This document shows positions 21,058-58,705 of a DNA stretch of 64,000 nucleotides, one piece after another. The position numbers and the translations under genes are program-made. Source of the stretch: Dastarcus helophoroides (lineage: Eukaryota; Arthropoda; Insecta; Coleoptera; Bothrideridae); assembly GCA_028583605.1 (NCBI GenBank), contig CM053326.1, positions 38,099,931 to 38,163,930 on the forward strand. The letters are read 5' to 3'. Each line of letters opens with the position of its first letter. Positions within the stretch are counted from its first letter, which is position 1. Below the pieces are notes generated by a model, which saw only the letters and a program-made list of their open reading frames with translations, was not told where the DNA came from and did no database searches.

Positions 21058-21175
21058 GAAATACAAATCTTGTCCCCTGAAACCAAAAAAGATTAAAAAA
21101 CACAACAGAGGTTGCTCTAACTCGTTTCGATAGCCTAGATATGATCTTCAAAGTGATACTGAGAGTAGCTGTTTA
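21058..21175. repeat. Single arm of palindromic repeat family P
   Basis: It begins GAAATACAAATCTTGTCCCC and follows the family order through AAAACACAACAGAGGTTGCTC to a TCGTTTCGATAGCC block, then ends near the position of the family's centre. Its hammerhead-like core on the minus strand is degraded (TTTGAAGA in place of CTCTGAAGA). Confidence 0.75.
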
Positions 21176-28536: not shown

Positions 28537-28757
28537 TTGAAATACAAATCTTGTCCCCTGAAACCAAGGAAGATTAAAAACACAACAAAGGTTGCTCTAA
28601 CGCGTTTCGACAGCCAAGTTATCATCTTCAGAGAGATTCATGATAACTTGGAGCAACTTTTGTTGTGTTTTTTCATCTTTCTTTGTTTTAGTTACAAGAT
28701 TTGTATTTCAATTTTTGAAGATAACCAAGGACCAGTCCGTTCCACCAAAACTAAATA
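28537..28757. repeat. Palindromic repeat family P, near-complete copy
   Basis: The left arm starts GAAATACAAATCTTGTCCCC. The right arm ends with the reverse complement (ACAAGATTTGTATTTCAA) at about 28716 and is followed by the family's outer tail GGACCAGTCCGTTCCACC. Between them lie AACACAACAAAGGTTGCTC and its reverse complement. The copy stops at a TA next to the mariner terminus at 28762. It is MITE-like in size, but no consistent target duplication was seen. A hammerhead-like core lies at 28595-28635 on the minus strand. Confidence 0.75.
28595..28635 (-). ncRNA. Hammerhead-like ribozyme core in family P
   Basis: On the minus strand the order is CTCT, CTGAAGA, one extra T, GATAACTTGGCTGTC (stem II GATA/TGTC with one wobble), GAAA, CGCG, TT, AGAG. 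This fits a type I hammerhead: the CUGANGA box, the GAAA box, a self-complementary stem III strand (ACGCGU), a U at the cleavage position and a 4-bp stem I (CUCU/AGAG). The extra base between CUGAAGA and stem II is unusual. The copy at 31967-32007 has a stronger stem II (GACAG/CTGTC). Activity is inferred from the fold only. Confidence 0.5.
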
Positions 28758-31834: not shown

Positions 31835-32070
31835 TTTGATGGAACGGACTGGTCCTTGGTTATCTTCAAAAATTGATATACAGAACTTGTCCCCTGAAAC
31901 CAAGAAAGATTAAAAAACACAACAAAGGTTGCTCAAATGCGTTTCGACAGTCAAGCAAAAGTTTTTCTCTCTGAAGATGACAGGTTGGCTGTCGAAACTC
32001 GTTTGAGCAACATTTGTTGTGTTTTTTAATCTTTCTAGGTTTCAGGGGACAAGTTCTGTATTTCAATTTT
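31835..32070. repeat. Palindromic repeat family P, near-complete copy
   Basis: The tail GATGGAACGGACTGGTCC leads into arm CTTGTCCCCTGAAACCAAGA, then AACACAACAAAGGTTGCTC. The second arm follows in inverted order: GAGCAACATTTGTTGTGTT, then GGTTTCAGGGGACAAG. This is the clearest copy of the full fold-back. The hammerhead-like core is on the plus strand. Confidence 0.8.
31967..32007 (+). ncRNA. Hammerhead-like core in family P, second copy
   Basis: CTCT, CTGAAGA, extra T, GACAG, loop GTTGG, CTGTC (perfect 5-bp stem II), GAAA, CTCG, TT, TGAG. Compared with 28595-28635 stem II is strengthened, while stem I has one mismatch (CTCT against TGAG). The stem III strand has decayed from ACGCGU to ACTCGU. 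Confidence 0.45.
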
Positions 32071-32204
32071 TTTTATTGTACTTTCTAATAAGGAGTATGG
32101 TTATGTTAGATATTCTCTGTATCTTCTTTGCAAAGTAGTATCATTTTCATTCTTGTTTCATTGGTTTTTTCTTCGCCAGTTACTCCTTCCACAATTCAAA
32201 ATTT

Positions 32205-32450
32205 TCAGTAACCTTCGGTTAAGAATTGGAATCTGTTATAGATTGCCCCAAGTAGCGATTGCATTGGATCTTTGTCAATCGTTGTTTGTGACTCAACACC
32301 CCCCATCGTAGGGGGCTTCTTAAGGAACAAAGAAAAGAAATAGTATATAAAAAGAGAAATATAAGGGAATATGCAAAAATGAAAGGATGAAAAGGCCAAT
32401 CTCAAAATATCAGAGCACGGTAACTCAGTATGTCCACCATACCAGAGGCG
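32205..32450 (-). mobile_element. PLE terminal repeat, degraded copy B
   Basis: Minus-strand order matches the other PLE ends (TCTGATATTTTGAGATTGGC, TTTCTTTGTTCC, AAGAAGCCCCCTACGATGG). The hammerhead is broken: CTTAAGA replaces CTGAAGA, and the GAAAC box is lost (32285-32325). It is flanked on its inner side by the inverted-unit cluster at 32410-32745. Confidence 0.7.
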
Positions 32451-32745
32451 AAACTCTTCTAGAGTTTCGCCTCTGGTATGGTGGACTTACTGAGTTACCA
32501 TGCTCTTCTCTCTAACTCAATATGTCCACCAAAGGCGAAACTCTTCTGAGTTGAAAATTGGTACAAAGGATAAGAAAGGCGAAACTCTTCTGGAGTTTCG
32601 CCTTTGGTATGGTGGACATACTGAGTTACCATGCTCTTCTCTCTAACTCAATATGTCCACCAGAGGCGAAACTCTTCTGAATTGAAAATTGGTACAAAGG
32701 ATAAGAAAGTTTAGAGAGAAGAAGAGTTTCGCCTCTGGTATGGTG
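32410..32745. repeat. Cluster of inverted PLE units
   Basis: The unit AGCACGGTAACTCAGTATGT ... CATACCAGAGGCGAAACTC appears in alternating orientation. 32410-32507 is a nearly perfect palindrome centred at about 32460. The pattern is repeated around 32590, with partial units between. At least five unit copies in both orientations are visible, together with the spacer TTGAAAATTGGTACAAAGGA. Confidence 0.85.
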
Positions 32746-33108
32746 GACATACTGAGTTACCGTGCTCTGATGTTTTGAAATTGGCCTTTTCATTTCTGCA
32801 TATTTCCTTATATTATTCTTTTTATTTATTGTTTCTTTTCTTTGTTCCTGAAGAAGCTCCCTACGATGGTGGACGAAACGTCGAACACTTTTAGGAGTTC
32901 TTTGACACGGTCCAATCCCGAAAGAAGTATATCCTGTACTGACTCTGGCCGAGGAAGTCTTCGTTATCATGTTATTAGAATTTAAAGAAAATAATACAGG
33001 TTTATCCCCTATTATATTTTTCAACTAGTTATAGCTTCAAGTGCAAAATGTACTTCACCCAAAAATATAAATATTTCAAATTTACAGTTTGTTTATTTAG
33101 TTACTTTT
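32690..33108 (+). mobile_element. PLE terminal repeat, solo copy C with extension
   Basis: It contains the unit GTTTCGCCTCTGGTATGGTG, the TTTTGAAATTGGCCTTTTC stretch, a hammerhead at 32843-32887, the GACACGGTCCAATCCC ... CCTGTACTGACTCTGGCC block, and then about 165 bp (AAGAAAATAATACAGG to GTTTGTTTATTTAGT). The last part is shared with the 3' end of the large PLE at 35105-35290 in inverted orientation. Confidence 0.8.
32843..32887 (+). ncRNA. Hammerhead ribozyme of PLE, copy C
   Basis: TGTTC, CTGAAGA, extra A, GCTC ... GGAC, GAAA, CGTC, GAACA. Boxes and stem I are intact. Stem II is weakened by two substitutions (GCTC against GGAC). Predicted cleavage is after the C of CGTC. Confidence 0.6.
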
Positions 33109-35104
33109 GATGTATGTACTGTGGTGTATAACCACTTGATTCATACCATTGTTTTACGAGAATTCTTTCTGCCAAATATTTTAAATAATTATGCAGTATT
33201 TATGTAAATGTTTTGACTTTAAATAACACAAACATATCCATATATTTTTTTGAGTTTTTTTTTCAATTAATTTACGTCTTAAATTTTGATAGTGTCTATG
33301 TCCAGTATAATTGTTGATCTTATGACGTATTTGTTCGCGGGAATCCTCGGTTGGCAACAAAGACTCGGTCTTGTAGTCTTGTGTCGACGTTCGTACTGTC
33401 AAGATGCCCTGAGGTTTGCTCTTACTCGTATTTTTGGAATAGTCCCCAAATAGGTAACATGTACCATTTTTATTTTGTTTATTTTTCGTTTCTTTTGTAT
33501 TAGGGAAACTTAATGGAAGTTAAAAAAAAACTTTAGTTGTTGTTGGATACATGCAACATATTTTGGGTTTTTAGTAAAAGGATTCCCCAGTACGATATCT
33601 TAGTTGCTTCCTTTTTTTCGAATATAGATTATTTTCAAGTCTTTGAAAATCTTCAGAAATTTTGGAGAGTGCTGGTCATATTTGCTTTGGCAATTAGTTT
33701 GTGGTTTAAGTTAGTTTTCTGTAAAATAATCGAGGGTTTTCCTTGTTGGTCGCTTCTGGTGACAGTTACCATTTTGTGGGATGTTTAGGTCTGAAAAAAA
33801 CTGTTGCTGCGTACATCGAGCAGTTTTCTACTAAGCATCTCGTACTGAGGAAAGCAGCACGTTTTACAATTCTTTAGTTGGGATATTGGGATTAGCGCCA
33901 AATGTTTTAATAAGGAGGTTGTTCATTCGCTCATTGATCACCAATAACTGGAATCAAATTATCACCATTGTGGTAACAATTTGTTGATATTCCACGTATT
34001 TTTTTATTTAGATAAATTTTGTCAATACATTATTTGGTTAATAGCTGAAAAGCTTAAAAGACAGTCAATTTTATTAGGTCACAGCCAGTTATGGTTTGCT
34101 TTAAAAACGGGCGAATTAAAAGAAATTGGCATTTGGTTTTTTTTTTGGTTTTGGAATTTGGTTGTATTTTATTCGAAATATCTAGCAAGTCACGGACTTT
34201 TTTTAAAATGTAAACAACGTACTGAATTGGACGTATAAAACGTCAAATCTTTCTTCATTTAAACCTTTCTTATTACTCATCTACTTTTCGAGATCCACTC
34301 TAAAATCAAAAAAACTCACCCTGTATAATTATCAATATTAAGATGTGAAACAACCGTTATAAAGTGTTTTTGGATCGAAACCTCGTTCTGGATCTGGGCA
34401 AAGATATCTGCACTTAACAATTTAATTGGTTATAAAATATAAAACTAATTATGCGTGTATAAATGAAGAATGCTAAAGCACGTCTACTTTGCCTTAAATA
34501 CGCATTTTTTTCGAGCTATTTAAATGGACTTCGTCATGAAAATGGCGATCGTGTCCTATTATCTCGCAATTAATTGTGGATAGTCGTAACTTGAGAGAAT
34601 AAAATCACCACGACTTAATTACGCAGAGATAAATTTAAAGAGCATGGAGAAGCAATTTGCAATTATGAATGGAGTTGAATGAAAATTGTGAATTATAACT
34701 TCATCATATTTAAACAACATAGATGCAAATAATTTACACCGTGTTTTACTTCAGAATTTGTATGGCGGCCTTTGCAATGACATTAGCTAGTTACAGTATA
34801 AGATAAACGCAAGGACACTGCTGTTTCCCTTAATGAATAATTTTGGAAGAACAGTATCTGTATTACATTTAAAATCTTAAGGCAGAATTAATCTATATTA
34901 TTAAAACTGAAGCGTCTAAGTGTCTGTCTGTTTGCCAACTGATCTTTTGTTCAGAAACTGCTAAATTGATTTTAATGAATCTCTGACTGAAATATAGAGT
35001 ATATTTAGAAGCACAATTTAGACTATTTTTATTCCTGTAAAATTCAGTCTTTTACTTTTGAAAACTCAACTCAATAAATTTATGAGAAAATGCTTCTGGA
35101 AAAA
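33109..35104. other. Unassigned 2-kb interval between inverted PLE ends
   Basis: This DNA is bracketed by copy C (plus) and the 3' end of the large PLE (minus), so its ends are inverted repeats of about 165 bp or more. Frames at 33537-33788 and 33981-34238 (83 and 85 codons, hydrophobic and tryptophan-rich) have no recognisable domain. AGTGTCTGTCTGTTTG at about 34919 resembles a motif common in insect dispersed repeats. Confidence 0.35.
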
Positions 35105-35337
35105 CTCTCACGATCAACACGTTACTAAATAAACAAACCGTAAATTTGAAATATTTATATTTTTGGGTGAAGGGCATTTTGCACGTGAAGCTATAAATAG
35201 TTGAAAAATATAATAGGAGATAAGCCTGTATTATTTTCTTTAAGTTCGAATAACATGATAATGAAGGCTTCCACGGCCAGAGTCAGTACAGGATATAATT
35301 CTTCCCGAATCAGACCGTGTCAAAGAACTACTAAAAG

Positions 35338-35381
35338 TGTTTGATGTTTCACCCACCATCGTAGGGGGTTCTTCAGGAACA
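35338..35381 (-). ncRNA. Hammerhead ribozyme, PLE 3' repeat
   Basis: Minus strand: TGTTC, CTGAAGA, ACCC ... GGGT (stem II), GAAA, CATC, AAACA. Relative to copy A one G is lost and C became T, so stem II changes from GCCC/GGGC to ACCC/GGGT and the extra base disappears, giving a fully canonical spacing. Stem I has one mismatch (TGTTC against AAACA), and the stem III strand is ACAU instead of ACGU, so activity may be low. Confidence 0.6.
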
Positions 35382-35449
35382 AAGAAAAGAAACAATAAGT
35401 AAAAAGGGGAAATATAAGGGAATGTGCAAAAATGAAAAGGCTAATTTCA

Positions 35450-35600
35450 AAACATCAGAGCACGGTAACTCAGTATGTCCACCATACCAGAGGCGAAACT
35501 CTTCTGAATTGAAAATTGGTACAAAGGATAAGAAAGTTTAGACAGAAGAGCACGGTAACTCAGTATGTCCACCATACCAGAGGCGAAAGTCTTCTGAGAT
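35450..35600 (-). repeat. Two tandem 89-bp PLE units
   Basis: AGCACGGTAACTCAGTATGT ... GAGGCGAAA occurs at about 35458 and again at about 35547, with the spacer TTGAAAATTGGTACAAAGGA between. The same pair is present in copy A (29602-29740). Confidence 0.85.
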
Positions 35601-35619
35601 GAAAGAATATATACCATTC

Positions 35620-35976
35620 GTCTGCATGATCACTCCCGAAGATTTCCAATGGTTGGTTTCCAGGTGGAGGAAAGCATGTGACCGTCGTCTCTGTTGATGT
35701 TTTTGGGAAATTTTTGGATTTCAATGGCCTCGCGTATCTTCCTATTATAGTAATTGGGAATATTGGATATAATTGAAATATTATCAAAGAGAATCTTATG
35801 TCCGCTCTCATGTTGATGTTTCGCAATGGCTGCCTGCGAAAATAAACCAGACCTAAGACATTTTTGGTGCTCGGATATTCGCGTCTTAAATGATCGCCCC
35901 ATTTCTCTGATGTACACTGAACCACAAGAACAAGGAACCCTGCACACGATTAGAACAAAAGGATGAAATTTTATCT
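35620..35976 (-). pseudogene. PLE GIY-YIG endonuclease domain
   Basis: GIY-YIG nicks target DNA for PLE integration. The minus frame reads CRVPCSCGSVYIREMGRSFK, TRISEHQKCLRSG, AIAKHQHESGHKILF and REAIEIQKFPKN, then HMLSSTWKP near the end. It keeps the cysteine motif typical of PLE GIY-YIG (C.C before GSVYI), the R of the first helix, the H residues and the glutamate of the AIEIQK block. The usual YIGETGR is YIREMGR here, a change at a conserved glycine. The upstream link (from PSPKD, now at 37.85 kb) is cut by the LINE insertion, and a one-base shift separates the linker frame from the domain frame. Confidence 0.85.
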
Positions 35977-37843
35977 GGGAACAATACAGAAAAAGTCGAA
36001 ACAAAGTTACAAGCACTATTCAGCCTAAAAAGAAGAATTATTTTTCAAGAAAAATTGAGAACAGCACCGATTCCAAACATATGTGGAGAAATGTTAACGA
36101 AGCTATCGGTGCCACGCAAATGTCACATCCAACAAAAATGAAATTTGATGGCATTATATACCGAGACGAGGCAACACTAGCCGAAAAATACAATGTCTTT
36201 GTGAGTCAAAGTATTATTGCATTAGTGAAATCTGATGGGAGACATTATAAAGACAAATATCCGTATAATGTTTTCAATAGCACTTATGGTGAACCATTTT
36301 CAATTGAGCCAGTTACACCCGAAGAAGTCAAAAAAGTTCTCAAAAGTATTAAAAAAGGAACGTCGACTGATGCAACCAAAAATAAAATTATTTCAATGGG
36401 CGGTAATTTTCTTTTGCTCAAAATTACTGAAATTATCAATAAGTTCTGATGATCCATCTAATTATAGACCAATTAATTCCCTACCGTACTTAGAAAAGGC
36501 TTTGGAAAGAATTGTATATAATCAGATGCTGCAATTTATTCAAAATAGTAATGTTCTCATCCCAAATCAGTCAGGATTTCGACAAGGGCACTCTTGTGAA
36601 AGCGCACTGCAGCTAACCGTCTCCAGATGGAAGAAATGGCTAGACAACCCTCGCCATCTAGTTTTAACTGTATTCTTGGATTTACGCCGTGCTTTTGAAA
36701 CTATTAACAGAAAACTCCTTCTTGAAAAACTGCGACTTATTGGTTTTGGCGATCCCGCACTCCAATGGTTTAGCAGTTATCTAACATCCAGATATCAGGT
36801 TACTTGGATTAACAATTATGTTTCGACAAGTGCAGCTAACAATTTAGGTGTACCGCAGGGGTCGATATTAGGCCCACTGTTGTTTATTTTGTACATTAAT
36901 GACATCGATCAGTGCACAGGCGACGACTGCTTCCTTAACCTATTTGCGGACGATACGCTCATATCAGTTGAAGAATCAGACTTGCAAAGAGGAGTAACTC
37001 GCATGAATGCAATTTTGGTGAATGTTAGTGAGTGGTTAAGAGTTAATGGCCTGATAATAAACGTAAAGAAGTCGAAAGTGATGTTAATGGGGAGCTCTAA
37101 CCCGATGGCGGATAAAGTAAAGTTAAACGGAGAATCTCTGGAGTTTGTCAACCAGATAAAGTATCTAGGAGTAACCATTGACAATGACTTAAACTTTAAA
37201 AAACACCTTAACAATACCGTGTTACAAATAAATGTTAAAATTAAATACTTTATCAGAATATGTAAAAATGTAAATCTTGCTAATCGCCTTAAAGTTTTTA
37301 ATACTTCAATTCGACCCTATTTTCATTACTGCTCAAGTATCTTGTTCTTTGCTAATAAATACCATTTAAAACAACTGCAGATACTGCAAAACAAATGTCA
37401 TAGAGCTATATTGAAATGTAACGTTTATACACCAATCGATCTGAAGCTTGATAGTCTGGGCTCACTGTCTGTACAGCAATATTTGTTTTATCAAACTATA
37501 ATATTTATTTATAAAATTATTAAAGGATTGTTGCCAGAATATTTAATGTACAATATAAGAACTGTTAACGAAGTACATAACTATGAAACCCGTAACCGTA
37601 GTAATATATATACAAGTACTGTTAGTAAAGAGTCGACATATAGATCTTTATTTTATAAGGGTGTCTCTCTATTTAATAATCTGTCGAACGAAATAAAAAG
37701 TGCAAATAATTCGTCTAGTTTTAAGAGAAATTTATGTGTCTATGGTAAAATGAATGTTTCTTGTTAACCAATAATGTTTTCCTGTAAATGTAAAAATATG
37801 TATTATTTATACATTTAATAAACTAATATTATTATAATTATCT
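35971..37843 (+). mobile_element. 5'-truncated LINE inserted in the PLE
   Basis: The element is 35977-37837, flanked by TTATCT at 35971-35976 and 37838-37843. Removing it rejoins PLE coding sequence (PSPKD in front, then a linker to CRVPCSC). It lacks the endonuclease domain, as expected for 5' truncation. The 3' untranslated region is short, with AATAAA at 37817-37822 and an A/T-rich tail. Insertion is opposite in orientation to its PLE host. Confidence 0.85.
35977..37767 (+). pseudogene. LINE reverse transcriptase (CR1/Jockey-like)
   Basis: Reverse transcriptase of a non-LTR retrotransposon. The frame entering from 35977 reads YRKSRNKVTSTI and MWRNVNEAIG, then VTPEEVKKVLKSIKKGTSTD, the region before the fingers, up to a stop at 36449. 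After a junction near 36440-36450 the other frame continues DPSNYRPINSLP, SGFRQGHSCESALQ, VFLDLRRAFETINR (motif A), GVPQGSILGPLLF (motif B), FADDTL (motif C), IKYLGVTID and RPYFHYCSSILFF, ending at 37767. About 25 residues expected between EIINK and DPSNYRP are missing, so an internal deletion with a frame change lies at the junction. The part after it is fully open for about 440 codons, suggesting recent insertion. Clade assignment is by general motif style only. Confidence 0.85.
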
Positions 37844-39582
37844 TTGGGAGAAGGGAGGAGCTGTTGGATCTTTGAGGATGATGAAAAAATGGGTTTAATG
37901 TTGTGTCTTCTCAATAATTTTCCCATTTGATCTGATACTCCGTGAACATAAGGAAGAAAGGCTTTAGAAAAAATCATTGAATTTTGTAAAGGACGAGGGG
38001 TAGGATGAAGATGTCGTTTAATGACAGTTTCAATATCGTGCGATTTGTAACCATTATTGCGGAGGTTAAGACAAATTTGGTTCAACTCGTCTGAAAGATT
38101 TATCGGTGTGTGAAATTGCTACAGCTCGTGAAACCAGCGAACTTATGACAAAACGTTTTTGGGAAGGGTGATGATGGGACTCAGCATGCAAATAACGATT
38201 AGTATTGGTGGGATAAACGGAATAAGAAAGGCAACCGTTTGGGAAACGGGTGACCAGTACCTCAAGAAAACGAAGAGAACCGTTCTTTTCGATTTCCATA
38301 GTGAAGCTAAAGTATTTAGGTACTCCAAAAATAAATTTAGTTAATCCTTGCCATGTGGCCATACAATAAATGTGTCATCTACATAAAGAAGCCAAACCTT
38401 GGGTTTTAAATCCTCAGTTTCCAACGCAATGTTTTCGAAAGATTCTATGAAAATATTTGTTACGACTGGAGATAAGGAAGAACCCATTGGGGTGCCGGAG
38501 ACTTGTTTATAAAAGCTGCCATTGAAAGAAAAATAAGTCGATATGTGGCACATTTCAGTTAAATCAACTGGAGAATCTGTATTCTCATTGCCTGAAAGTA
38601 ATTGACGAATTATCGTCATGAAGTCGAAAACTTGGAACATTAGTGAATAGTGAAGTGACGTCAAAACTAACCAGTATGTCATTGGAGTCTAGGGTTAATT
38701 AGGAAACAATTCGACAAAGTGTTTAGAATTTAGGACGTGTGATGATGTGTTTCTGGTATATGACTTAAGGATGTTAGATAAATATTTCGAGACATTGTAG
38801 GTACGTGAATTTATCGTGCTGATAATGGGACTAAAAGGAATATTGGGTTTGTGAATTTTGGGGAGATCAAAAAGACGAGGTGGTTTGGATTCTCTCGAAA
38901 CAAGATGTCTGAGAGTGTCTGCGGACAAATTTGAGGATTTTAGCTTGGATTTGAGTTCGCGTTTAATTTTGCTTGTTGGATCCCAAGGGAGAGTAATATA
39001 GGATCCGTCATTCAACAGAGCGTTAATTTTGGATACATACTTGGAATTATCCAAGATGACAGTTGCATTATCTTTATCAGCCGAGAGAATAGTAATTAAC
39101 GAATCTGTTTTTAGGGTTTTAAGGAAACATCTTTCTTCTCAAGAAATGTTGTACTTTGGTGGTTTGGCATGTTTTAGTATTTTTTTAGTTTGAAAACAAA
39201 TAGGATCTGCTGCCTTCTTGGAGAGAGTTCTGATGGAAGACTCTACTACAGTGAGTATTTCCTCAGTTGGAATTTTTCTTGGAGCGACAGCAAAATTCAG
39301 TCCTTTACATAAGATGGTATGTTCGTTATCCGACAGTGGACGGGAAGATAAATTGACCACCGTTTTTGAGACCAAACTATAAGTTTTGACCTTTGGACTT
39401 AGGGACTCGAAGTTCTTCTTGTGTTTCAGAGTTTTTAATTCAAAAGTTTTTTTGGACTGATTATAGGATATGGAGTCGAAATGACTCCAATGTTCAACCG
39501 ACAGTCTACTCGATAGTTCCAGATGGAGCCCGAGCAATTGTTGACGGATCGAAGCCAAATCGCATTTAATCCTATTAGTCAT
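37844..39582 (-). pseudogene. PLE reverse transcriptase, frameshifted
   Basis: PLE reverse transcriptases resemble telomerase RT. From ATG at 39582 one reads MTNRIKCDLASIRQQLLGLH, then, after an in-frame TGA at 39139-39141, ILSADKDNATVILDNSKYVS. Then come PPRLFDLPKIHKPNIPFSPI and, in another frame at about 38697-38645, DILVSFDVTSLFTNVP (motif A). Back in the first frame follow KQVSGTPMGSSLSPVVTNIF (motif B) and YVDDTFIVW (motif C). The thumb region (SLRFLEVLVTRFPNG and NRYLHAESHHHPSQKR) is in a third frame, and PSPKD returns to the first. At least one stop and three or four frameshifts are therefore present. All catalytic motifs survive as sequence, so decay is moderate. Confidence 0.9.
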
Positions 39583-39671
39583 ATCTCAACAAGAGACCAA
39601 CCAGCTTTATGAAGAATTTTAAATGAAGAATTGGTTCTAAAGTTATCTTTAATTCTGAAAGATTTCGGAAT

Positions 39672-39925
39672 TTAATTGTGATCCCTGCAACGCGACGAAA
39701 AAGTTAAATTGGAAATAAGTTTAGAAACTTGATGACGAAGTTTAGAGAATAGAAGGGTTTTGCGAGAGATTTCCTTCCCGTAAAGGTTCTGAATATGATA
39801 ACGAAGGCTTCCACGACCATAGTTAGTACAGGATATACTTCTTTCGGGATTGGACCGTGTCAAAGAACTACTAAAAGTGTTTGACGTTTCGCCCACCATC
39901 GTAGGGGGCTTCTTCAGAAACATAA
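39672..39925 (-). mobile_element. PLE 5' terminal repeat
   Basis: Contains the hammerhead (39878-39922), the block CTTTGACACGGTCCAATCCC and AAGTATATCCTGTACTAACT, then GTGGAAGCCTTCGTTATCAT. It continues into a leader (RKTLLFSKLRHQVSKLISNL in one frame) before the RT start at 39582. The upstream border is near 39925, where the similarity to other copies ends. Confidence 0.75.
39878..39922 (-). ncRNA. Hammerhead ribozyme, PLE 5' repeat
   Basis: Minus strand: TGTTT, CTGAAGA, extra A, GCCC ... GGGC, GAAA, CGTC, AAACA. Compared with copy A, stem I changed from TGTTC/GAACA to TGTTT/AAACA. This is a compensatory pair change that keeps all five base pairs. Boxes, stem II and the ACGU palindrome are intact. 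Confidence 0.7.
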
Positions 39926-41447
39926 TCAACATTACATCAGAACGAATATGTATCCCGTTTTTGGGGACGACATAACGTCATTTTATAAAGTGTGTAATTT
40001 TTTTATGACGAGTTTTGACATTTTTAATAGGAGTCTAAATTTCTATTAACAAAAATGACACATTTAACTTCATTATGCTAAAAAATTGACTATGACAGAA
40101 AAATCTGACTGGTGAGACAGGGGTCCATGTACTTTGAGGTGCCATCACAACAATGCACACATGTCTCTGCTCAATTAAACTTTTTCATCAGACCTGAATC
40201 TGCTTCACTTTTTTCGTTTCCAAAACCTGAAACTCATCCCAAAGATTATCATTTTGACCTTTTCCATTTCCCACTGTTGGAATTCACTCAAAAGTTACCA
40301 CTTTGAATGATGGAAAAGCATTAAAAATCTAGCAACCGATGGTAAACAATTGCATCCTTTTAAAGACGAATAAACATTGTTTGCTCCAGTTTTATTTATT
40401 TATAATTGCTAATGTGTAATTTGCCAATTTTCTGATTCTGATTAATTCTTTTAAAAAATGGGTCCATCAGAAACTATTCAGCTCTTCCAGAATGCTAATT
40501 TGCGGAAACTCTAACTGTATAAATTAGTTAGTCCCACGCCTTTCTTGTGCAAGTTATTTCATTGTTAGTTTCATGGCAAATAAATCAGTAATAAATTTGA
40601 AAAAATCTAGCGAGGAAAATACATAGCAGTAATGCAGAATCGAATTACATGGTTTTCAAAGATATTCCCAAGTGATTATACTTGATTGACGACGATAGTG
40701 TACTTTTTACTAATAAGTAATATGCCGTGGATGCAAGAAACCCGCTTGCAGAGAAATCACGACCTCGTCCTTGACTGTTGCCTGGTTATGCAGGTACCCA
40801 GTGCGCTTCTTAGAAATACGCAATAAAAACCTCACTACTTCCATCTAATGAATAAAACTATACTAATAAGCTAACGCTTTGCCATCAGACACGACCATAG
40901 GGGCTTTGTAATATATTGCACTAGGTCTATAGGTTACCTATTAGAATTTATAAAAAAAGGATTAAATGAAGATGAAATTGGCGACCTTTGTATAATGAGA
41001 TTCACATTAAATTAGAAATTTATTGTCAGTTACCATATTGCACAGCGTGTTAAAACAGTCTCTCACTATGATGACAAAATAATTGCTGAAGCTGTTGTCA
41101 GTTTCACATTTTTAATTAATCTTTACTAATTTACGAATATGTTTGTGTTTTATCGTCAACAGATTTTTCACTTTATTCGATGATATTGGGAGATAGATAA
41201 GGAGCTACAATTTTCATATTAACTAATAGTAACTAATAGTACGTAGACAAAATTTGTTCTTTTAAAATGATCTAAGATGCAATATTCATACTGTAAAAAC
41301 GTTTAAACTACTGATAATCTCTTCTGTATTATTCAGTTGCATAAGTTATCAAAACTTCTTGTGATAGCTAATAATTCAAGAAATCTTCTAACATTGGTAT
41401 TAAAGTGGACGAAGTCGTGCACGACCACTTTTATTGCTGTTATTTTT
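39926..41447. other. Unassigned interval
   Basis: No domain-bearing frame. 40110-40310 has a short open frame (64 codons) of ordinary composition. No repeat or RNA gene recognised. Confidence 0.3.
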
Positions 41448-41685
41448 TTGGTGCAACGGACTAATTCTTGGTTATCTTCGAACATTGATATACTAATTTT
41501 GTCCCCTGAAACCAAAATAGATGAAAAAACACAACAACAATTGCTCAAACGTCATTCGATAGCCAAACTATCATCTTTAGGGAGGTACTGTAGATGATAG
41601 CTTGGTCATCGAAACGCGTTAGAGGAACTGTTGGGTTTGTAATCTTTTTTGGTTTCAAGGGACAAGATTGTACATCATGCAATAC
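41448..41685. repeat. Palindromic repeat family P, diverged full copy
   Basis: The tail GGTGCAACGGACTAATTCTT, arm TTTTGTCCCCTGAAACCAAA, AAACACAACAACAATTGCTC, and the inverted second arm TTTGGTTTCAAGGGACAAGA are all present. The hammerhead-like core on the plus strand is CTGTAGA ... GAAACGCGTTAGAG: the CUGANGA box has one substitution and the left stem I strand is lost. Confidence 0.75.
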
Positions 41686-43869: not shown

Positions 43870-45008
43870 TAAGCCGTTTTTTTTATAGCTTCTGACGGGG
43901 CTTTGCGGCATCCAATCTCCAGGCCTCTCGGTATTCCTAGCTTCTTACTACTAGGTTCCGTTTCGACATTGTTTTTGCAATCCCACCTTTCCATGTATTT
44001 GGCGGTCTCCCCTTTTTTCTTCTCTCCTAAGGTGCCCACTCCATAAGAGTAGGGGTCCATCTGACATTCGTTGAACGCCCATACCAAATGAGTTGCTTGG
44101 ATTTAATTTCGTCCATGGCATCTGGCCTCGAATTTCTGCTTTAGCCTTTTAACTATAGCAATATTTAATATTATTAAATAAGCGTCTTTTAAGGTATCTT
44201 CTCGCCTCTTAACAACGAAATTTGATATACCTCTTGGTTTTTTTTTCAGGAAATTATAGCTGTAGCAGCCTCGATCTTCTTGCAGCTCTCCCCAAGAAAT
44301 CCATCTCAGTGACAATTAGTCTTCTTTCATCGCTTGCGTTTATTTGCCAAACTTCGCTTTCACAAGTGACGATGCTTTTGAATAGATGCATCTCTTATTT
44401 CTCTTTGATATCTCTTTGCTCCAAAAGACTAAATTAAGCATGCTTGTCTCTGCTTTTCGTTTATTTATGCGATCTCTGATTGTTTCGGTGCTCCTTCCAT
44501 TGTGGTGCATCTTTATGCCTAGGTAATTGTAAGCATCGCTTCCATTATGTTGCCGTCATCCAGTTGCAAATTTTCGTTGTGTCACCCAATACACATATAC
44601 CTAGTTTTTTGCATGGTTCTTTGCAAACCCCATTTTTTATACTCTTCATTTAGTTTTCGGAACATTCCCGATCTTGAGCTACTATTACTTGATCGTCAGC
44701 ATAGTGTAGGGTATATAAATTAGTGTTTCCTATTTAGAATCTCATTCTGATGCACTTCCTTTTTCCAGTGTTTAAGAGCTATATCTAGGTAAATTCTAAA
44801 TGAAGCTTGGGCATGCGCAGCACCCCTGTCTTAGGCCCTTGCTCATTTTAAAAGTCTTCCCAAATTTTCTCTTATTTTTACCTGGGCAAGTAGTCTGTGC
44901 GTATAGGTTCTTTCATCGCGGATATTAATGTGTGACTGTATTTGGCGTCTCCAAAACTGCCCATAGCTTTTTCAATGGTACGCTGTCATATGCTTTGGTA
45001 AGGTCGAT
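43870..45008 (-). pseudogene. RTE reverse transcriptase, C-terminal half
   Basis: Reading down from 45000: LTKAYDSVPLKKLWAVLE (motif A region), then in shifting frames KMSKGLRQGCCACPSF (motif B), a degraded YTMLTI(K) at the motif C site, YNYLGIKMHHNGRSTETIRD, KAFGK-type sequence and SLRWISWGELQEDRG. After the small repeat follow IQATHLVW and GIAKTMSKRNLV. This order is characteristic of RTE-clade LINE proteins. Stops and frameshifts are numerous, and the YADD core is not intact. The 3' end near 43855 is AT-rich without a clear poly(A). Confidence 0.8.
44143..44268 (-). repeat. 125-bp dispersed repeat, copy 1
   Basis: The minus strand from CTACAGCTATAATTTC to TATAGTTAAAAGGC matches 60186-60310 (plus) with few differences. 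It interrupts the RTE protein reading. Both copies keep an open frame with NFVVKRRE.TLKDAYL and ILNIAIVKR. No terminal inverted repeat or target duplication was established. Confidence 0.7.
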
Positions 45009-48000
45009 TAGTGGCGGCTGGCGTATAGGCACTGTGGAACTGCAGCACCTCCAATTTCGCTTAAAAGTTTTTTTCTCAAAATTTTCTGAACACTTTTCAT
45101 TTCACAATTTTTTGTAGAAATTTTAAATATTCTCTGATTTCTTTTTATAGAAATTTTAGGTTTCTTTCACGAAGTTGCGACATTAAAATCCTAATTTATT
45201 TTTAATTTTGATCAAAATCACATTTTTAAAAATCAATTTTTGTAAAAGTATTGAAAAAGAAGTCAATATTTCGAGCAAGAATAAAATATTAAGAAAAAAA
45301 CTCAAATTTCTTTGAAAATGTCAATATTTTGAGAAAATAATTACAATTTCAAGAAAAAAATCTAAGTCCAACTCGTCTCGCATTTTAATATTTCTCTAAA
45401 AAATAGGTTTATTTGTTAATCTTCGAAATTCTACCTCAAATCTTATTTTGTATAAAAATTTTGAGTGTTTTTCAGATATTTCGATTTTTTTAGGAAATTT
45501 TGATTTTTTTCTGCAAAGTTTCCGTTTTTCTTAAATATTTTATTCAAAGAAATTTTCTCAAAATTTCCATTTTTCCTAAAAGTGTTGTTCTTAAAATTTT
45601 TTTCTAGAAATTCCAACTTCTGCAGATTTTTCTTTATGTTCCTCTAATTTGCTTTAAAAGTATCAAGTTTTTTCACGACTTTTTTTGGCAATTTAAAGTT
45701 TATTTTATTTTGTAGTTTTGACAAAACATGTTTGGAAAAAAGCCCTGAAAACTCTATAAAAATTTCAACATTTTGGGAAAAACAAAAAATTTTGACTTTT
45801 TTCTAATGATATTTTTCAAAATTCGATATTTTCTCTAAAAAATTTTGCTTTTTTTCCTGCAAAATTTGTGTTTTCCTCTATAAACATTTAATACAAAGGA
45901 TTTTTTGAGATATTTTGACTTTTTCCGGAGATTTTGTCCTTAAAATATTCTTTTTTATAGACATTTTTATTTCTCTCTAATTTGTTTTGGAAATTTAAAA
46001 TTTTTGTGACGAAATTTTAATATTTTAAAGTTCATTTTATTTTGTAATTTGGATAAAAAACTGAAGATTATTAAATATAAATTTAGGGAAGGACTTCAAA
46101 TCTGCATAAAAATAAAAAAACTTTGGGAAAAATATTTAAATTTCAAGAAAAATGAACCTTGTAAATTTCAACATTTTTTACAAGTTAATATTTCTCTACT
46201 ACTGTAGGACCGAAGACAATTCTGAATCGAAATTTCCAATTTTTCTAGACATGTTAAATTTTTTGTTGAAATTCTCAAATTTGAATTTAAAATTCAAATT
46301 TCGATAAAAAAAGATCGAAATTTAAAGATTAAAGTTAAAATTTCGAGAGAAAGCAGATCATATTTCTAGAAAAAGTTAAAATTTCTTATTTGTAAACATT
46401 TAAAAAAAAAATAACATTTTCGGAATTAAAGAAAAAAAAACCCTTTTTTGAAATAAATTAATTGTCAAAAGTATTTTTATAATTTCGACTTTTAAAGTGG
46501 GAATTATTAAAATTTTTGAGAAAAAGAGTCAACATTTCTAGAAGTCTGAAAATTTCGAAATTAAAATGAGTCAAAATGTTGAAAAAAAATTCATTAACAA
46601 TTTACTGGTCTAGTTTAATTTTTTTCCAGTAATTTTGAAGTTTCAGAGGAATTTCAAAAATCAAATATTCCAGCTTAAAGCCAATTTTTTGTGATTAAAA
46701 TTCAAATTTTGGCAATTTATTTGTACATAAAATGCAAGTTTTTGTTGAAAATTTATTTCAAAATCGTGCACAGTTTTAAAAATAGAAATTTTTGATATTA
46801 ATTTTTTAAATTCGAGTGTTATTTCGAAATAGTTTCTCAAAAAATGTAAATTTAAAAAGAAAAACATTACCAATTTTAAAAAATAAAGCTAAAGTAATTA
46901 GAAAAGTCGAATTTTTTTTAAAAAGTCAAATTTAAAAAAAAATTGAAATTTCTCATAGTAAGTCAAATTTTCAAAAGAAAATAAGGATTTTGAAAAAAAA
47001 TGTCAATTTATAAAATGGTCGACAATTTCAATAATTTTGGGAATGTGAATGAAAGACGAAATTTTGGAAAAATATCGACATTTTCAAATAAATTGCAGAG
47101 TTTTTAATTACATTTTCGAAGAAGCTGGATTTTTTGGAATATTGCAGTAAACTCAAAATTATCGAAAAATTTGTAATTATCAGAAAAGGTGAAATTTTGA
47201 ACAGGTAAAATTTTGAAGAGTCGAAAATTTCAATAGTTCAAGTTCAAAAAGAATATTTTCTTTTAAGTCAAAGATTTCATTGAAAAAAAGTATAAATAAA
47301 ATTTTTAAAAAAGCTTGAACTTTTTAAAAAAAAGTCAGGTATTCAAAAAGTCGATATTTTGAAAAAAAATCAAAGTTTTGAAATGGAGTCGAAATTTTAC
47401 GAAATATTAGTCGAAAATTTGAATAAAATGTTTTAAGACAAGTCTGACTAGAAAATTATCATTTTCAAATAAAGGATCGACAGTTAGTAGAAATTGTCAA
47501 AATTTTAAAAATAGTTGAAATAATAATAGTCAAAATTTTAAAGTTTTCCAAAAATTTTAAATTTTGGAAAAGGACCAAAATTTTGAAAAATTCTAACATT
47601 TGAAAAATACCGGAATTTTCAACAAAGTGGGAATTAGAATAAAAAGTCCAAAATTTCAAAAAAGTGCAGACTTAAGAAAAGGTTAAAATTTTTAATAAAG
47701 GAAGTCGACATTTGTTGACGAGGCGAAAAATTTTCAAAATCCTTCAAATTTCCAAAAGAAGTCAAAATTTCGCAAAAGAAGAAATTTTCATAAAGAGAAG
47801 GTCAAAATTTTATAGTCGAAATTAAAAAAGTGTGAAAATTTGCAAAAGATTTAAGAATTTTTATTGAATTTACGAAATAATTCGAAAGTTTAAATTTTGA
47901 ATAGTTGGGAAATTTGCATCCAACTTTTCAATATAAACCAAAATTTTTGAAACCGGACAATTGAAAACAAGTGAAAATTATCAGATAGATCGAGGTTTTC

Positions 48001-53113: not shown

Positions 53114-53870
53114 AATTAAAGATCATCAATACATATTGTCATAGTTTATTGCCTTTTATTTATTGTTAAATACATAATAATAAATTAATGAATTTCCAAC
53201 ATTATCATACGCTTCAGTTTAGACAAAAGATTTCTATGAAATAGATATATGTTTTCCTCTTTACTTGCATTAAAGTTGAAGATATCTTAACTTTAATTTA
53301 AAAAAATTTGGTATAAGGAAAAACAATAATTAATTGTTCATTATATTTATGCAAAACTGTCAGTTGATATTTATGTACAAATTTTTACTTCCGTTAATAA
53401 GTTTATTATGTTTTACCTTATAAGGTGGAAAATTCTATTTGCAGTATCTATGACATCAGGGCCGTGCCGTGCTATAATACAAAGAGGCAAACGCATCTAA
53501 GGGGCGGCATAAGCAGCTAAATCAAAATATAATTTGAGCCATTCCATAATTAAAAAGTTTTACACATCGCTTTTCTCTGTCGGTCTATGTCAACGGTGGA
53601 GAAATGCGATTCTTCTTCAAATTTTAATGTTTTTTTTTTTAATTCAGAAGATACAATTCTTGTTAAAAGTTTAATGCAAGTAGAATGCAGCCTAGACTAC
53701 AAATTCATGCTGCCCTCGAGGCGTGTATAGTGAATCATAGGTAGTTGCTGAACTACCAACAGTTGAAACACTGCCACCTAGCGAAGCGGTTGCTCTTTAG
53801 GAAAAAGTTCCATAAAACAAGGATTCTAATGTACAGACTAATAGGTTTGACCGTTTATTAGATTCGAAGT

Positions 53871-53927
53871 TTGGAAACCAAATACCGGTTTCGATCTTGT
53901 TAGATCTCGTCAGTTTGGTATATCCAA
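53871..53927 (-). ncRNA. Type I hammerhead ribozyme, unit 1
   Basis: Minus strand order: TTGGA, TAT, ACCAAA, CTGACGA, GATCT, loop AACA, AGATC, GAAA, CCGG, TA, TTTGGT, T, TCCAA. Stem I is 6 bp (ACCAAA/TTTGGT), then an internal loop, then 5 bp (TTGGA/TCCAA). Stem II is a perfect 5 bp with a 4-base loop. Both conserved boxes are exact. The stem III strand with its flanks is the palindrome ACCGGU, and cleavage is predicted after the A complementary to 53883. All features of a natural hammerhead are met without any forced pairing. Confidence 0.88.
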
Positions 53928-54246
53928 CTCGAATGCTAATAAATGTTCCGACAAGTAAGTACTAAAACATTCACAGGCGTCAAGTGTGTGACTCTTAGTA
54001 CTACCACCTATTGGTCCATAGAGAAACTATGGCCATCGCCAACAATGTCGTATGCAAATAGAATGCAACCTAGACTACAAATTCATGCAGACCTCCAGGT
54101 GTGTACAGTGAATCATAGGTAGCTAAACTACCAACAGTCGAAACACTGCCACCTAGCGAAGCGGTTGCTCTCTAGGAAAAATTTCCCAGAAAATAAGGAT
54201 TCTAATGCACAGACAAGTAGGTGCGAACATTTATTAAACTCAAAGT

Positions 54247-54303
54247 TTGGAAACAAAAGACCGGTTTCGATCTTGTTAGATCTCGTCAGTTTGGTATATC
54301 CAA
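54247..54303 (-). ncRNA. Type I hammerhead ribozyme, unit 2
   Basis: Same boxes, stem II and ACCGGU palindrome as unit 1, 376 bp further on. The cleavage base is C here (GUC triplet, the most common in natural hammerheads). The proximal stem I has one mismatch (ACCAAA against TTTTGT), while the distal TTGGA/TCCAA helix is kept. Confidence 0.82.
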
Positions 54304-56189
54304 CTCGAATGCTAACAAATGTTCCGACAAGTAACTACTAAAGAATTCACGGACGTCAAGCGTGTGACTCTTAGAACTACCACCTATTGGTCCATAGAGA
54401 AACTAAGTTGAAGCTAACAATTAAATAAAATTCCAATGTGCATAAAAAAAATTTCGAAATTACAAAATTAAAATTATGATTTACGAAAAGGTGCAGGATT
54501 CTTTACGGGCAAAATTTCGAACCTAAACTCGGGATTTTGCTGAAATAATTTAAAATTTAGAAAAAATGCAAATTAGTAGAAATAAAACTGACAAATATAT
54601 TCAAAAAATACTTCTTGAAAATAAAGTCATCAGTCACGTCTCATCAATCAAGTCTTGATTTCGCAAACAGAAGAAAAAAAATAAAGACGTCGTTTGAGGA
54701 AAATTTAAAAAATATATAAATAAAACTTGGATGCTAACTAAAAAAGGTTTAGAAAAAAACCAAATTTTGAGATTAAAATGATATTCATGAAAAGGAAAAA
54801 AAAATGTAAAAGAAAGTTTGATCGTTTTTTCATAAATGTCGAGTTTTTTCTCGAAATTTTCGTTTTCTATCAAAATTCTTAGTTTACATTTCACAATTCT
54901 TATATTTTCAAGGACTAAACTGGAAATTTTGAAAAGGAATCGAAATTTGAAAATGTCTTTAAACATTTTAAGATAAAAGATTAACAAATCTGGATCAGAT
55001 AAACGAGAAAACAGTTATTATATCATATTTCAAAAAGTCAAAAATTTAAGCTTACAGTCAAAATTTCAGGAGAAACGTTAAAATTAAATTTTGGCTACAT
55101 CAGATAAAATTTTGAAAGGATGAAAATACAGAAAATTAAAAAACTTCAAGAAAATCAAAATGTAAAAATAGTAAGTTTAAAATAGTGGCTTTGTAAAAAA
55201 CTTAAAAATTATGAGACCAAGAAATTTTAAAAAGGATTCAAACTTAAAAAAACCGAAATATTAAGTTTTTTTTAGAAATTTAGAGTAAAAGTTGAAATTT
55301 CGAAAATAAGACATAACTTTCAAAGAAAGTCTTAATTTCACTGCTTTTCAACAGTCGAAAATTTGAAAAATGGTTGAAATTTTTGATAAAATTGAAAATT
55401 GTGAAAAAGAAAAAAATTCAAATCGACATTTTGAAAAAATAAAAAATTGTAAAAAAGATGGAAGTTTTGATAAAAATGAAAATTATGAAAAAGAACAACA
55501 TTTTAGGTCAACATTGTGAAAAAATAAAAAATTGTAAAAACTTACCAAGAAAAAATTTCAAAATTGGGAGAGAAATATGACATTTTGAAGAAAAAAATCG
55601 AAATTTTTTAAGAAGAATTAAAATTTTGTCAATATAAACAGACAAAATTGTTAAAAAAAAATAAAGATACATAATTTTTAAAAATTTTGGTAAGGTCAAA
55701 GGTTTCCAAAAAAATGGAATCTTTTAAAAGTGACAATCTTCAAGTAAAATGAAAACTAAGAGAACAAATCAAATTTTAAAACTCGATCGAGATTTCAAAA
55801 AAAAAAGTAAATATTACTAAAACAGATTGTGAAATGTTCACAAGTCGAGTTCTTAAGATAAAAGCAAAAATTTCGGAACAGAAAAAATTCCTTCAAAAAG
55901 TAAACTATGGAAATAAAAATTTTGGAGAAAATTTGAAATGATCGAAAAAACTTAAAATCCTAAAAGAGTTCAAAATTTAAAATATTCGAACTTTAAAAAA
56001 AGTCGAAACTGCAACAAAAAATAAACATCTCTATTAATTTTTTTAAAAAGTTGAATTTTTGGAAAAAGTCAAAATTTTGAAAAAAGTAGAAAGAAATTTT
56101 GAGTAGAAGTTTTGACAAAAGTACACAAAAAATCATAAGCAAAAATTTTCAATAACGTCGAACTTTTCCAGTAAAATTTATCAAAAATT

Positions 56190-57740
56190 AAAATTTTTGA
56201 AAGTTGAAATCGAAGATCAAAATTTTTATAATAATCTAAAATTTAGAAAAATTTATATTTAAAAAAAGATAGAAATATTGAAAAAACTGGAAACTGCGAA
56301 ATTTCAATTTTTTAATATAAGTGCCAACATTTTCAAAATAACTCAAAATTTTTAAGTTGGATTTAAAAATAAAATGGAATTTCAAAAATGTCGAATCAAA
56401 ATATTCAAAAAGGCAAAATTTTCAGAAAAAATTAAATCTGGAACAAATCATAAGCAAAATTTTCAATACGTCGAAGTTTTCCATAGTAGTTTTTCAAAAG
56501 TTAAAGTTTTTGAAAGTTGAAATCAAAGAGCAAGATTTTTATAATAATCTAAAATTTAAGAAAGAGTCAAAGGATGGAAATATTGAAAAAACTGGAAACT
56601 GCGAAATTTCAATTTTTTTAATATAAGTGCCAACATTTTCAAAAAAACTCAACATTTTTAAGTTGGATTTAAAAATAAAATGGAATTTAAAAAATATCGA
56701 ATCAAAATATTCAAAAAGGCAAAATTTTCAAAAAAAAAATTAAATTTGGAAAAAAATCATAAGCAAAAATTTTCAATACGTCGAAATTTTCCATAGTAAA
56801 GTTTTTCAAAAGTTAAAATTTTTTAAAGTTGAAATCGAAGACCAAGATTTTTATAATAATCTAAAATTTAAGAAAGAGACAAAGGATGGAAATATTAAAA
56901 AACCTGGAAACTGCGAAATTTCAACTTTTTTAATATAAGTGCCAACATTTTCAAAAAAACTCAAAATTTTTAAGTTGGATTTAAAAATAAAATGGAATTT
57001 CAAAAATGTCGAAATAAAATATTCAAAAAGGCAAAACTTTAAAAAAAATTAAATCTGGAAAAAAATCATAAGCAAAAATTTTCAATACGTCGAAATTTTC
57101 CAGAGTAAGGTTTTCCAAAAGTTAAAATTTTTGAAAGTTGAAATCGAAGAGCAAGATTTTTATAATAATCTAAAATTTAAGAAAAAGTCAAAGGATAGAA
57201 ATATTGAAAAAACTGGAAATTGTGAAATTTTCAATAGAAGTGCCAACATTTTCAAAAAAATTCAAAACTTTCAAGTTGGATTTAAAAATAAAAGGGAATT
57301 TTAAAAATGTCGAATCAAAATATTCGAAAATGCAAAATTTCCAAAAAATTTAATCCGGAAAAAAATCATAAGCAAAAATTTTCAATACGTCGAAATTTTC
57401 CCTAGTAAAATGTTTCAAAATTTAAAATTTTTGAAAACTGAAATCGAAGATCAAAATTTTTGTAATAATCTAAAATTTAAGAAAAAGTCATATTTAAAAA
57501 AAGATAAAAATGTTGAAAAAACTCTAAACTGTAAATTTGACATTCTCAATAGAAGTGCCAACATGTTCAAAAAAATTCAAAATTTTCAAGTTGGATTTAA
57601 AAATAAAATGGAATTTCAAAAATGTCGAATCAATAAAAGAAAATCAAAATATTCAAAAAGACAAAATTTCCAAAAAAAATTAAATCTGGAAAAAAGACTA
57701 AATTTCGAAAAAATCGAAAATTTAAAAATAAATAGAAATA
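56190..57740. repeat. Tandem array inside the hAT-like element, period about 306 bp
   Basis: Five copies, anchored by GTTGAAATCGAAGA (or its close variants) at 56213, 56516, 56828, 57137 and about 57437. Each contains TTTTATAATAATCTAAAATT, AAGTGCCAACATTTTCAAAA, AAGTTGGATTTAAAAATAAA and CATAAGCAAAA(A)TTTTCAA. Non-coding: the purine-rich plus strand gives long chance frames such as 57410-57754. Confidence 0.9.
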
Positions 57741-58593
57741 TTCAAAAAAGGTGACATTTTTCAAAATAAGTTGAAATTTTGAAAAAAGTGTGGATATTTT
57801 TAAAAAAAGTGGAAACATTTAAAAAAGTCGCGGTTTTCCAAAAAGTTATAACTTCGAATAAAAGTCGATATTTTCGAAACTTAACATTTTCAAAATAAAG
57901 TAGTAGGTTAAATCTTTCAAATATAGTGGAAATTAAAAAAAAAGATCATTTTTTTGAATGGGTAGGTCAAATCTTTTAAATATGGTGGAAATTAAAAAAA
58001 CAAGATCATTTTTTTTAAATCGCAATTTTTAAACGTCAAAATTTTGAAGAAAGTTGAAATGATTTAAAAGAGCAAAAAAGAGTTGAATTTTAAAAAAGTC
58101 AGAACTTTTAAAAGGTCGAAAATTCGAGAATCGAAATGTTCAAAGTCGACATTTATGGAAAACTGATATATTCAAAAAAGCAGAATTCTTAGAAGAATAT
58201 CGAAATTTATAACAAAATAAAAATTTCGAGAAAAAGGCGAAATATTGAAAAAATCAAAATTGTCAAAAAAGCTCAATTATGAAATGAACATTTTCAAAAC
58301 ATTTAAAATTTTAAAAGTATTTAAATTTTGGAAAATAACGTCGAAGTGTTTCTTCTTAAGTTGAAATTTTAAAACGTAGCAAATTTATAATTTTTAACAG
58401 TACTAATTCATAGTATTTTAAAAGAGTCGAAATTTCGAGGAAAGTTTGAAATTGTGAGAAAAAATTAAGATTTTCAAAAAAAAAGAAAAACTTATTATGG
58501 GCATTTTGAAGAGCTGCATCATTGAAGAAAATTTACAGCACGGCCCTGTATGACATTTATACTTTTAATTCATTGGCTAAATTTTAATAAATA

Positions 58594-58705
58594 TTGAAAT
58601 ACAAAACTTGTCCCCTGAAGCCAAGAAATATTAAAAAACACAACAGAGGTTGCTCCAAGAACGCGTTTCAACAGCCAAGTTATCATCTGAAGAGAGATAC
58701 TGAAT
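58594..58705. repeat. Single arm of palindromic repeat family P
   Basis: Starts TTGAAATACAAAACTTGTCC and proceeds through AACACAACAGAGGTTGCTCC to ACGCGTTTCAACAGCCAAGT and ends at the family centre. It lies 38 bp outside the right target duplication of the hAT-like element. Its minus-strand hammerhead core is degraded (CTTCAGA, and TGAAAC after a weakened stem II). Confidence 0.75.

Follow-up and report, generated by a model that had tools for sequence, protein, structure and literature searches.

A high-copy beetle retrozyme with two recurrent insertion ends, one copy of which lies inside a non-autonomous hAT element

Retrozyme units and hammerheads in the window

The window (the whole 64-kb stretch of beetle DNA that was analysed) contained a retrozyme insertion of approximately 1.95 tandem units of 376–378 bp at 53674..54405, as delimited by repeat and unit alignment, with the RNA sense on the minus strand. 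Tandem repeat analysis of 53674–54405 gave a period of 376 with 1.9 copies and an 89% match. One type I hammerhead was found on the minus strand of each unit, hammerhead A at 53860..53931 and hammerhead B at 54236..54307. Both copies had the core CUGACGA, a stem II of GAUCU/AGAUC with the loop AACA, GAAA and ACCGGU. Cleavage was predicted after the base opposite 53883 in copy A and opposite 54259 in copy B, the base at the cleavage site being A in copy A and C in copy B. The Rfam model Hammerhead_HH9 matched hammerhead A with 34.4 bits (E-value 1.2e-6) and hammerhead B with 32.9 bits (E-value 3.6e-6) in a search of a 1.1-kb stretch, and the E-values over the whole window were 6.9e-5 and 2.1e-4, respectively. 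Both scores were below the Rfam gathering score of 52 and therefore a default Rfam scan lists neither hammerhead. Hammerhead A had six proximal stem I pairs and hammerhead B had a stem I of ACCAAA/UUUUGU with one C-U mismatch. A strict hammerhead descriptor, applied to both strands across all 64 kb, matched the core at 53913 and nothing else, copy B failing it.

An earlier note made from the sequence alone had described a retrozyme-like tandem dimer with two minus-strand type I hammerheads in an insect genome and had proposed a covariance-model search. The dimer was confirmed by the repeat analysis and by the HH9 matches to both copies, below the gathering score as they are, and the retrozyme-like nature of the unit was supported. 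Some details were revised: the unit of roughly 377 bp has a period of 376 between cleavage sites, and the statement that each hammerhead satisfies every rule does not hold for copy B, owing to the C-U mismatch in stem I. The palindromic ACCGGU named as stem III stands as a dimer helix, but a 3-bp hairpin cannot form. In the monomer helix III consists of a single A-U pair with CCGG as its cap and in the dimer it is a 6-bp helix. As modelled, the ACCGGU stem III suits folding as a dimer, either of two molecules or of two copies.

The predicted 376-nt RNA monomer between the cleavage sites (53883..54258, minus strand) had a GC content of 0.404 and a minimum free energy of -128.2 kcal/mol with a z score of -6.18, and a unit from another locus gave a predicted fold with a z score of -7.58; both RNA monomers were thus predicted to be highly self-paired. 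The two units of the window showed 34 differences, 8 of them informative, and were the most divergent within-array pair of the set of units compared. Such a number is not expected from a single recent circle unless the insertion is old.

The hAT element as landing site

The retrozyme lies in a hAT element of 5092 bp including the insert (53457..58548, plus strand), which was delimited by terminal inverted repeats (TIRs), target site duplication (TSD) and repeat analysis. The TIRs CAGGGCCGTGCCGTG/CAGGGCCGTGCTGTA at 53457 and 58548 are 15 bp long with two differences, and they are flanked by an exact 8-bp TSD TATGACAT at 53449..53456 and 58549..58556 (plus strand), so that the hAT-like element of the earlier note is real. 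No other CAGGG/CCCTG pair of the window has an 8-bp TSD. The AT-rich interior holds about five tandem repeats of 312 bp, and only two ORFs of at least 90 aa were present within the element (117 and 114 aa), both of low complexity by eye. The element was taken as non-autonomous.

The 217 bp to the left of the retrozyme, which form the hAT left end, recurred in full or partly at 39 further places among the best 40, and none of the 12 hAT paralogs fetched had an insert at the retrozyme position, small gaps aside. Comparison by eye with these empty sites gave a retrozyme TSD of 7 bp with one mismatch, AAGTTTA at 53667..53673 and AAGTTGA at 54405..54411 (plus strand), the first base of the right copy being also the last one aligned to the unit. 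No TSD was detected at the window copy when exact duplications were searched for automatically. The left junction between hAT and retrozyme had exactly one genome match and zero copies with one mismatch; at up to 3 mismatches there were 105 + 112 genome matches compared to 89 + 100 for the reversed pattern. The empty paralog sites, the 7-bp duplication and the unique left junction together indicate that the retrozyme entered an existing hAT copy, which agrees with the suggestion that it had landed there, and so the insert-bearing copy would have left no detectable descendants carrying the retrozyme. The event provides a clear example of retrozyme insertion at a site whose empty state is known.

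The other part of that suggestion, in which the retrozyme was captured by the hAT element and is carried to new sites by cut-and-paste transposition, has in its favour that intact hAT ends, flanked by an 8-bp TSD, enclose the retrozyme. It was rejected on the empty paralogs, on the single occurrence of the left junction and on the retrozyme loci elsewhere. The search for units outside the hAT-like ends that the note had proposed showed that the hAT left end was absent from all 20 other retrozyme loci compared (L009–L028), in which matches to the hAT right end and body were short or of low complexity, and retrozyme copies have duplications of their own. With abundant matching cores in the genome and 20 loci lacking the hAT left end, copies do not occur only within the hAT-like element with decayed cores, the situation that the note had named as contrary evidence. 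Spread by the hAT element has next to no probability.

Retrozyme copies in the genome

The core pattern CTGANGA-N14-GAAACCGGT had 4,499 genome matches (2233 + 2266 in 539 Mb) and the reversed pattern had none (0 + 0). An identical exact 30-mer was present in 75 of the 100 core places listed, as counted by eye. Two samples of loci were used. For the first sample, the best 40 of 4,482 candidate places were scored, and 20 of the 39 loci outside the window were fetched (L009–L028) and grouped by eye; one of these, L009, had four near-full units. The second, systematic sample (L041–L060) was drawn from the first 100 core places on contig C1, of which every fifth was used (20 loci).

Comparison of 49 units from 21 arrays showed a divergence of 4.7% within arrays against 6.7% between arrays. 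The nearest neighbour was in the same array for 29 of the 49 units (shuffle mean of 1.5 and maximum of 9), and for minor alleles common to several arrays the within-array agreement was 0.32 against 0.12 when shuffled (maximum 0.21). The kinship within arrays and the allele agreement fit arrays that were copied from one multiply circled template and subsequently decayed. Excess conservation of the hammerhead was not seen among the 49 units (0.0353 compared to 0.0352 for the rest of the unit), and the sample therefore shows no selection on the hammerhead.

The exact 30-base retrozyme core had 0 matches in viral contigs. With a looser core, 26 viral and 118 prokaryote stretches were among the matches listed, and 106 of these 144 (L068–L173) were examined. 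Seven had at least four of the five stem II pairs and none of the seven had a stem I by eye, so the viral and prokaryote matches were taken as chance. The insect host given in the earlier note was borne out by a nuclear COX1 copy with 95% identity over 91% to an entry labelled Cucujiformia, from which the host was taken to be a beetle. The copy derives from mitochondrial COX1, has COX2 adjoining, is at C3:12967862-12970609 (L061 and L062, on a 47-Mb contig) and is a useful species marker.

Insertion ends and arrangement of copies

Insertion ends were mapped at 41 loci (the window, L009–L028 and L041–L060) comprising 51 clusters, with clusters shorter than 100 bp omitted. With 53674 numbered as u1, site A was set at u368-8 and site B at u138-160; both were set after L009–L028 had been viewed, and together they cover 11% of the unit. 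The RNA ended in ...CUUGCAU at site A and in ...GUGCAUUAG at site B. The outward RNA-3' ends were at site A or B in 67 of 73 cases (36 at A, 31 at B and 6 elsewhere), and the 26 RNA-5' ends were divided into 3 at A, 3 at B and 20 at other positions. In L041–L060, which were sampled later than the setting of the sites, 28 of 33 RNA-3' ends were at A or B and 5 were not, and 7 of the 9 twins were A+B by the row count of that sample.

A total of 23 clusters had two RNA-3' ends, and these were A+B in 20, A+A or B+B in none, and included another position in 3. In the twins, the A-ended and the B-ended part were on opposite target strands and met at variable points. All 25 orientation switches were head-to-head. 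Core neighbours at up to 600 bp among the first 100 cores were likewise arranged as -+ (12), ++ (2), -- (1) and +- (0), with one +- pair at 659 bp. Junctions no more than 30 nt from symmetric numbered 10 of 25 against 4 expected, an excess which indicates that fold-back may contribute, and the other 15 were asymmetric. The insertion at positions 3894-5445 of L014, which has two identical units, a 15-bp TSD and both A and B ends, is probably a young twin retrozyme insertion.

Flanking duplications were tested in 48 of the 51 clusters, as three that ran off the fetched stretch were excluded. Exact duplications of 8–17 bp flanked 24 of the 48 clusters and the other half showed no exact duplication; among the 24, element sequence accounts for those of L010 and L055 and for part of those of L026 and L047. 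Duplications of at least 10 bp were found in 21 of 48 true pairs compared to 1 of 480 mispaired controls, and those of at least 8 bp in 24 of 48 compared to 18 of 480, the mispaired controls being ends of different clusters. Of the 17 ends at which the distance from cleavage to site B was measured, 15 had site B 56–63 nt past the cleavage point, and one of the two exceptions had a doubtful TSD. The hammerhead cleavage site coincides with neither A nor B, so the template is not simply read from the cleaved end. For the window copy, the best explanation is an A-primed, one-sided insertion into the existing hAT element.

In the predicted circular fold of the monomer, site A (ending at about nucleotide 206) and site B (about 55–57) were on opposite strands of a helix, approximately 8 bp apart. 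At least three expected A–B pairs in the ensemble were obtained for 16 of 17 testable monomers, and 4 of the 21 monomers had no recognisable site. On average, 1.3% of alternative positions equalled or exceeded the pairing of A with B. An RNase III-type enzyme making staggered cuts in the RNA at the two sites was considered and rejected, as the predicted stagger was about 8 nt by eye and not 2.

Penelope-like element and candidate enzyme

A decayed element at 35100..39922 (minus strand) is a candidate Penelope-like element, classed from a weak reverse transcriptase (RT) match together with motifs. It includes an RT piece (38341-38682) just below the Pfam cut-off, a GIY-YIG-like piece recognised by eye (35630-36016) and two terminal repeats, at 35252-35381 with a minimal hammerhead-like motif at 35376 and at 39792-39922 with one at 39917. 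A telomerase-related RT, a GIY-YIG endonuclease and pseudo-LTRs bearing minimal hammerheads characterise Penelope-like elements. The best PDB match of the RT piece was a bacterial-type RT with an E-value of 0.0059, and telomerase RT was matched at 0.39–0.48. Protein search with the RT piece gave six short matches, three to 'hypothetical protein' and three unnamed, and the GIY-YIG-like piece matched no Pfam family and no protein. A plus-strand RT gene at 36081-37767, taken for a LINE, is nested in this element. Elsewhere in the window, at 32297-33111, an insertion of the Penelope-like terminal repeat is head-to-head with its 3' ends outward and is accompanied by 131-bp tandem units. Sequence kinship of the retrozyme with the Penelope-like element of the window was rejected, as no match was better than an E-value of 0.81 over 9–33 nt.

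Among the best 40 of 2,465 candidate places for the Penelope-like repeat, the main RNA-3' end was mostly near q365, and an opposite-strand neighbour was present at 10 of the 40 scored loci, all head-to-head by eye. Two LINE 3'-end queries gave an opposite-strand neighbour in 0 of 40 and 0 of 40 scored loci; these controls are weak because they cover 3' ends only, and inversions of upstream sequence would escape. Four twin Penelope-like loci were read, and the short end was not clearly shared by two of these. Locus L067 has a 13-bp TSD, with ends at q368 and q334, one end thus being 34 nt shorter. By eye, the short end was about 53–56 nt past its own cleavage point in L066 and L067, about 43–54 nt in L065 and 4 nt in L064. 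The same head-to-head layout in the retrozyme and in the Penelope-like repeat suggests a Penelope-like RT that is primed from both target strands.

Proposed cycle and alternative explanations

Overall, it is quite likely that the element is a high-copy, non-coding, non-LTR beetle retrozyme which is circle-templated and two-site primed, probably by a Penelope-like enzyme, and whose window copy lies inside an older hAT element. In the proposed cycle, tandem units would be transcribed by read-through, and paired hammerheads would cut the RNA into 376-nt monomers via the 6-bp ACCGGU dimer helix III. The monomers would be closed by a host ligase and the self-paired circle would serve as template. 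One RT complex, probably from a Penelope-like element, would bind at the helix where A faces B and offer A to one nicked target strand and B to the other, so that both could prime. The cDNAs would run round the circle, often for more than one turn, and join at variable points to give tandem and head-to-head arrays. The specific version of this step, in which the folded circle presents facing A and B sites to a single Penelope-like RT complex and one cDNA is primed per target strand and copied round the circle, is offered tentatively, at rather less than an even chance. The hammerhead may help to place the enzyme, because site B and the short Penelope-like end (in two of four loci) are at similar distances past cleavage, 56–63 nt and about 53–56 nt, respectively. 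If the proposal is true, two-site priming would fill in the integration step that is missing for animal retrozymes.

Other enzymes and routes were weighed against this cycle. In LINE twin priming, head-to-head inversions with TSDs are formed. The inversions and the 8–17 bp duplications of the retrozyme are therefore also compatible with ordinary twin priming by a LINE RT in place of a Penelope-like RT, and RT genes taken for LINEs by eye are present in the window. The absence of opposite-strand neighbours at the LINE loci, against 10 of 40 for the Penelope-like repeat, points the other way, within the reach of 3'-end queries, and mobilisation by a LINE seems fairly unlikely. Another conceivable origin of the head-to-head form is that a single cDNA folds back and primes itself, a mechanism that was put forward for Penelope elements on the basis of palindromic junctions (PMC3846280). 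The excess of near-symmetric junctions is what such a process would give, but it leaves unexplained the 15 asymmetric junctions as well as the use of the other fixed site, and never the same site, as the far end in 20 of 23 twins. As the source of the twins it is accordingly held to be unlikely.

The remaining reading treats the units as an ordinary tandem satellite whose hammerhead is a relic and which spreads by recombination of DNA and not through RNA. The tandem arrangement and a hammerhead without excess conservation agree with it, and hammerhead satellites have long been known in newts and cave crickets (PMC7229834). It does not account for short dispersed arrays, many of them with TSDs, nor for two fixed RNA-3' ends accompanied by variable RNA-5' ends and by inversions that are only head-to-head, and it is very improbable. 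The circle-templated, two-site primed cycle is thus preferred here.

Comparison with known retrozymes and Penelope-like elements

Metazoan non-LTR retrozymes have one type I hammerhead per unit of 170–400 nt (Cervera and de la Peña 2020, PMC7229834). They occur as dimers or short arrays with a GC content below 50% (a limit of 45–50%), duplications of more than 4 bp and self-paired RNA, and they coexist with hammerhead-bearing Penelope-like elements (PMC7229834). Insects are among their hosts, and in the same source Penelope-like elements are strong candidates while the mobilising enzyme is left open. The window element has type I hammerheads in 376-bp tandem units, a GC content of 0.404 and, by eye, a 7-bp TSD with one mismatch. 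The size and composition of its unit, the type of hammerhead, the tandem arrangement and the duplications make it, as far as sequence features define the class, a metazoan non-LTR retrozyme, and the likeness extends to short arrays, predicted self-pairing and coexistence with a candidate Penelope-like element. It differs in that its ends have been mapped, whereas no two-site or head-to-head insertion structure is described in the passages of PMC7229834 cited here.

Helix III is stable in the majority of invertebrate retrozymes (PMC7761336). The one-pair helix III with a palindromic tetraloop cap and the expected function as a dimer resemble instead the satellite hammerheads of axolotl and newt, of which HHR_Amex1 of the axolotl cleaves well only as a dimer (PMC7229834); the present host is a beetle, and the likeness described is one of hammerhead form. 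Plant LTR retrozymes share a hammerhead-made circular RNA as transposition intermediate but differ by type III hammerheads, LTRs, PBS/PPT, a size of about 700 nt and a 4-bp TSD (PMC7229834).

In Penelope elements, head-to-head is the commonest arrangement and a 31-bp tail is optional at one inverted repeat (PMC3846280). The beetle retrozyme is like Penelope-like elements in head-to-head terminal parts, TSDs (8–10 bp in the latter), partial tandems and two alternative 3' ends (PMC3846280). Unlike them it is non-coding, whereas they encode their enzyme, and its ends are opposed in the fold of the presumed circle. Retrozyme repeats were described as having no conserved motif that reveals the mobilising partner (PMC7761336, in the part cited). 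A search of the open-access literature found no report of head-to-head or two-site insertion of a retrozyme; the retrozyme class itself is known and the two-site insertion rule seems to be unreported in that literature. Animal retrozymes are abundant circular RNAs. The insertion ends of the present family give a signature, two fixed sites with one of each per twin in head-to-head arrangement, that can be looked for wherever a genome contains retrozymes, and its head-to-head layout agrees with that of the Penelope-like element of this genome.

Other repeats in the window

Related repeats were present at 21056-21162, 28536-28750, 31868-32071, 41440-41677 and 58585-58703, three of which were palindromic by self-alignment. 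Two of these related repeats carried CTGAAGA...GAAAC motifs, at 31971 (plus strand) and 28631 (minus strand), which resemble minimal hammerheads. The repeat at 31.9 kb was the source of Rfam plant-miRNA matches. Finally, AT-rich, strand-skewed blocks of low complexity at 22700-25900 and 44000-48000 were similar by eye to the interior of the hAT element at 54.4–58.5 kb.
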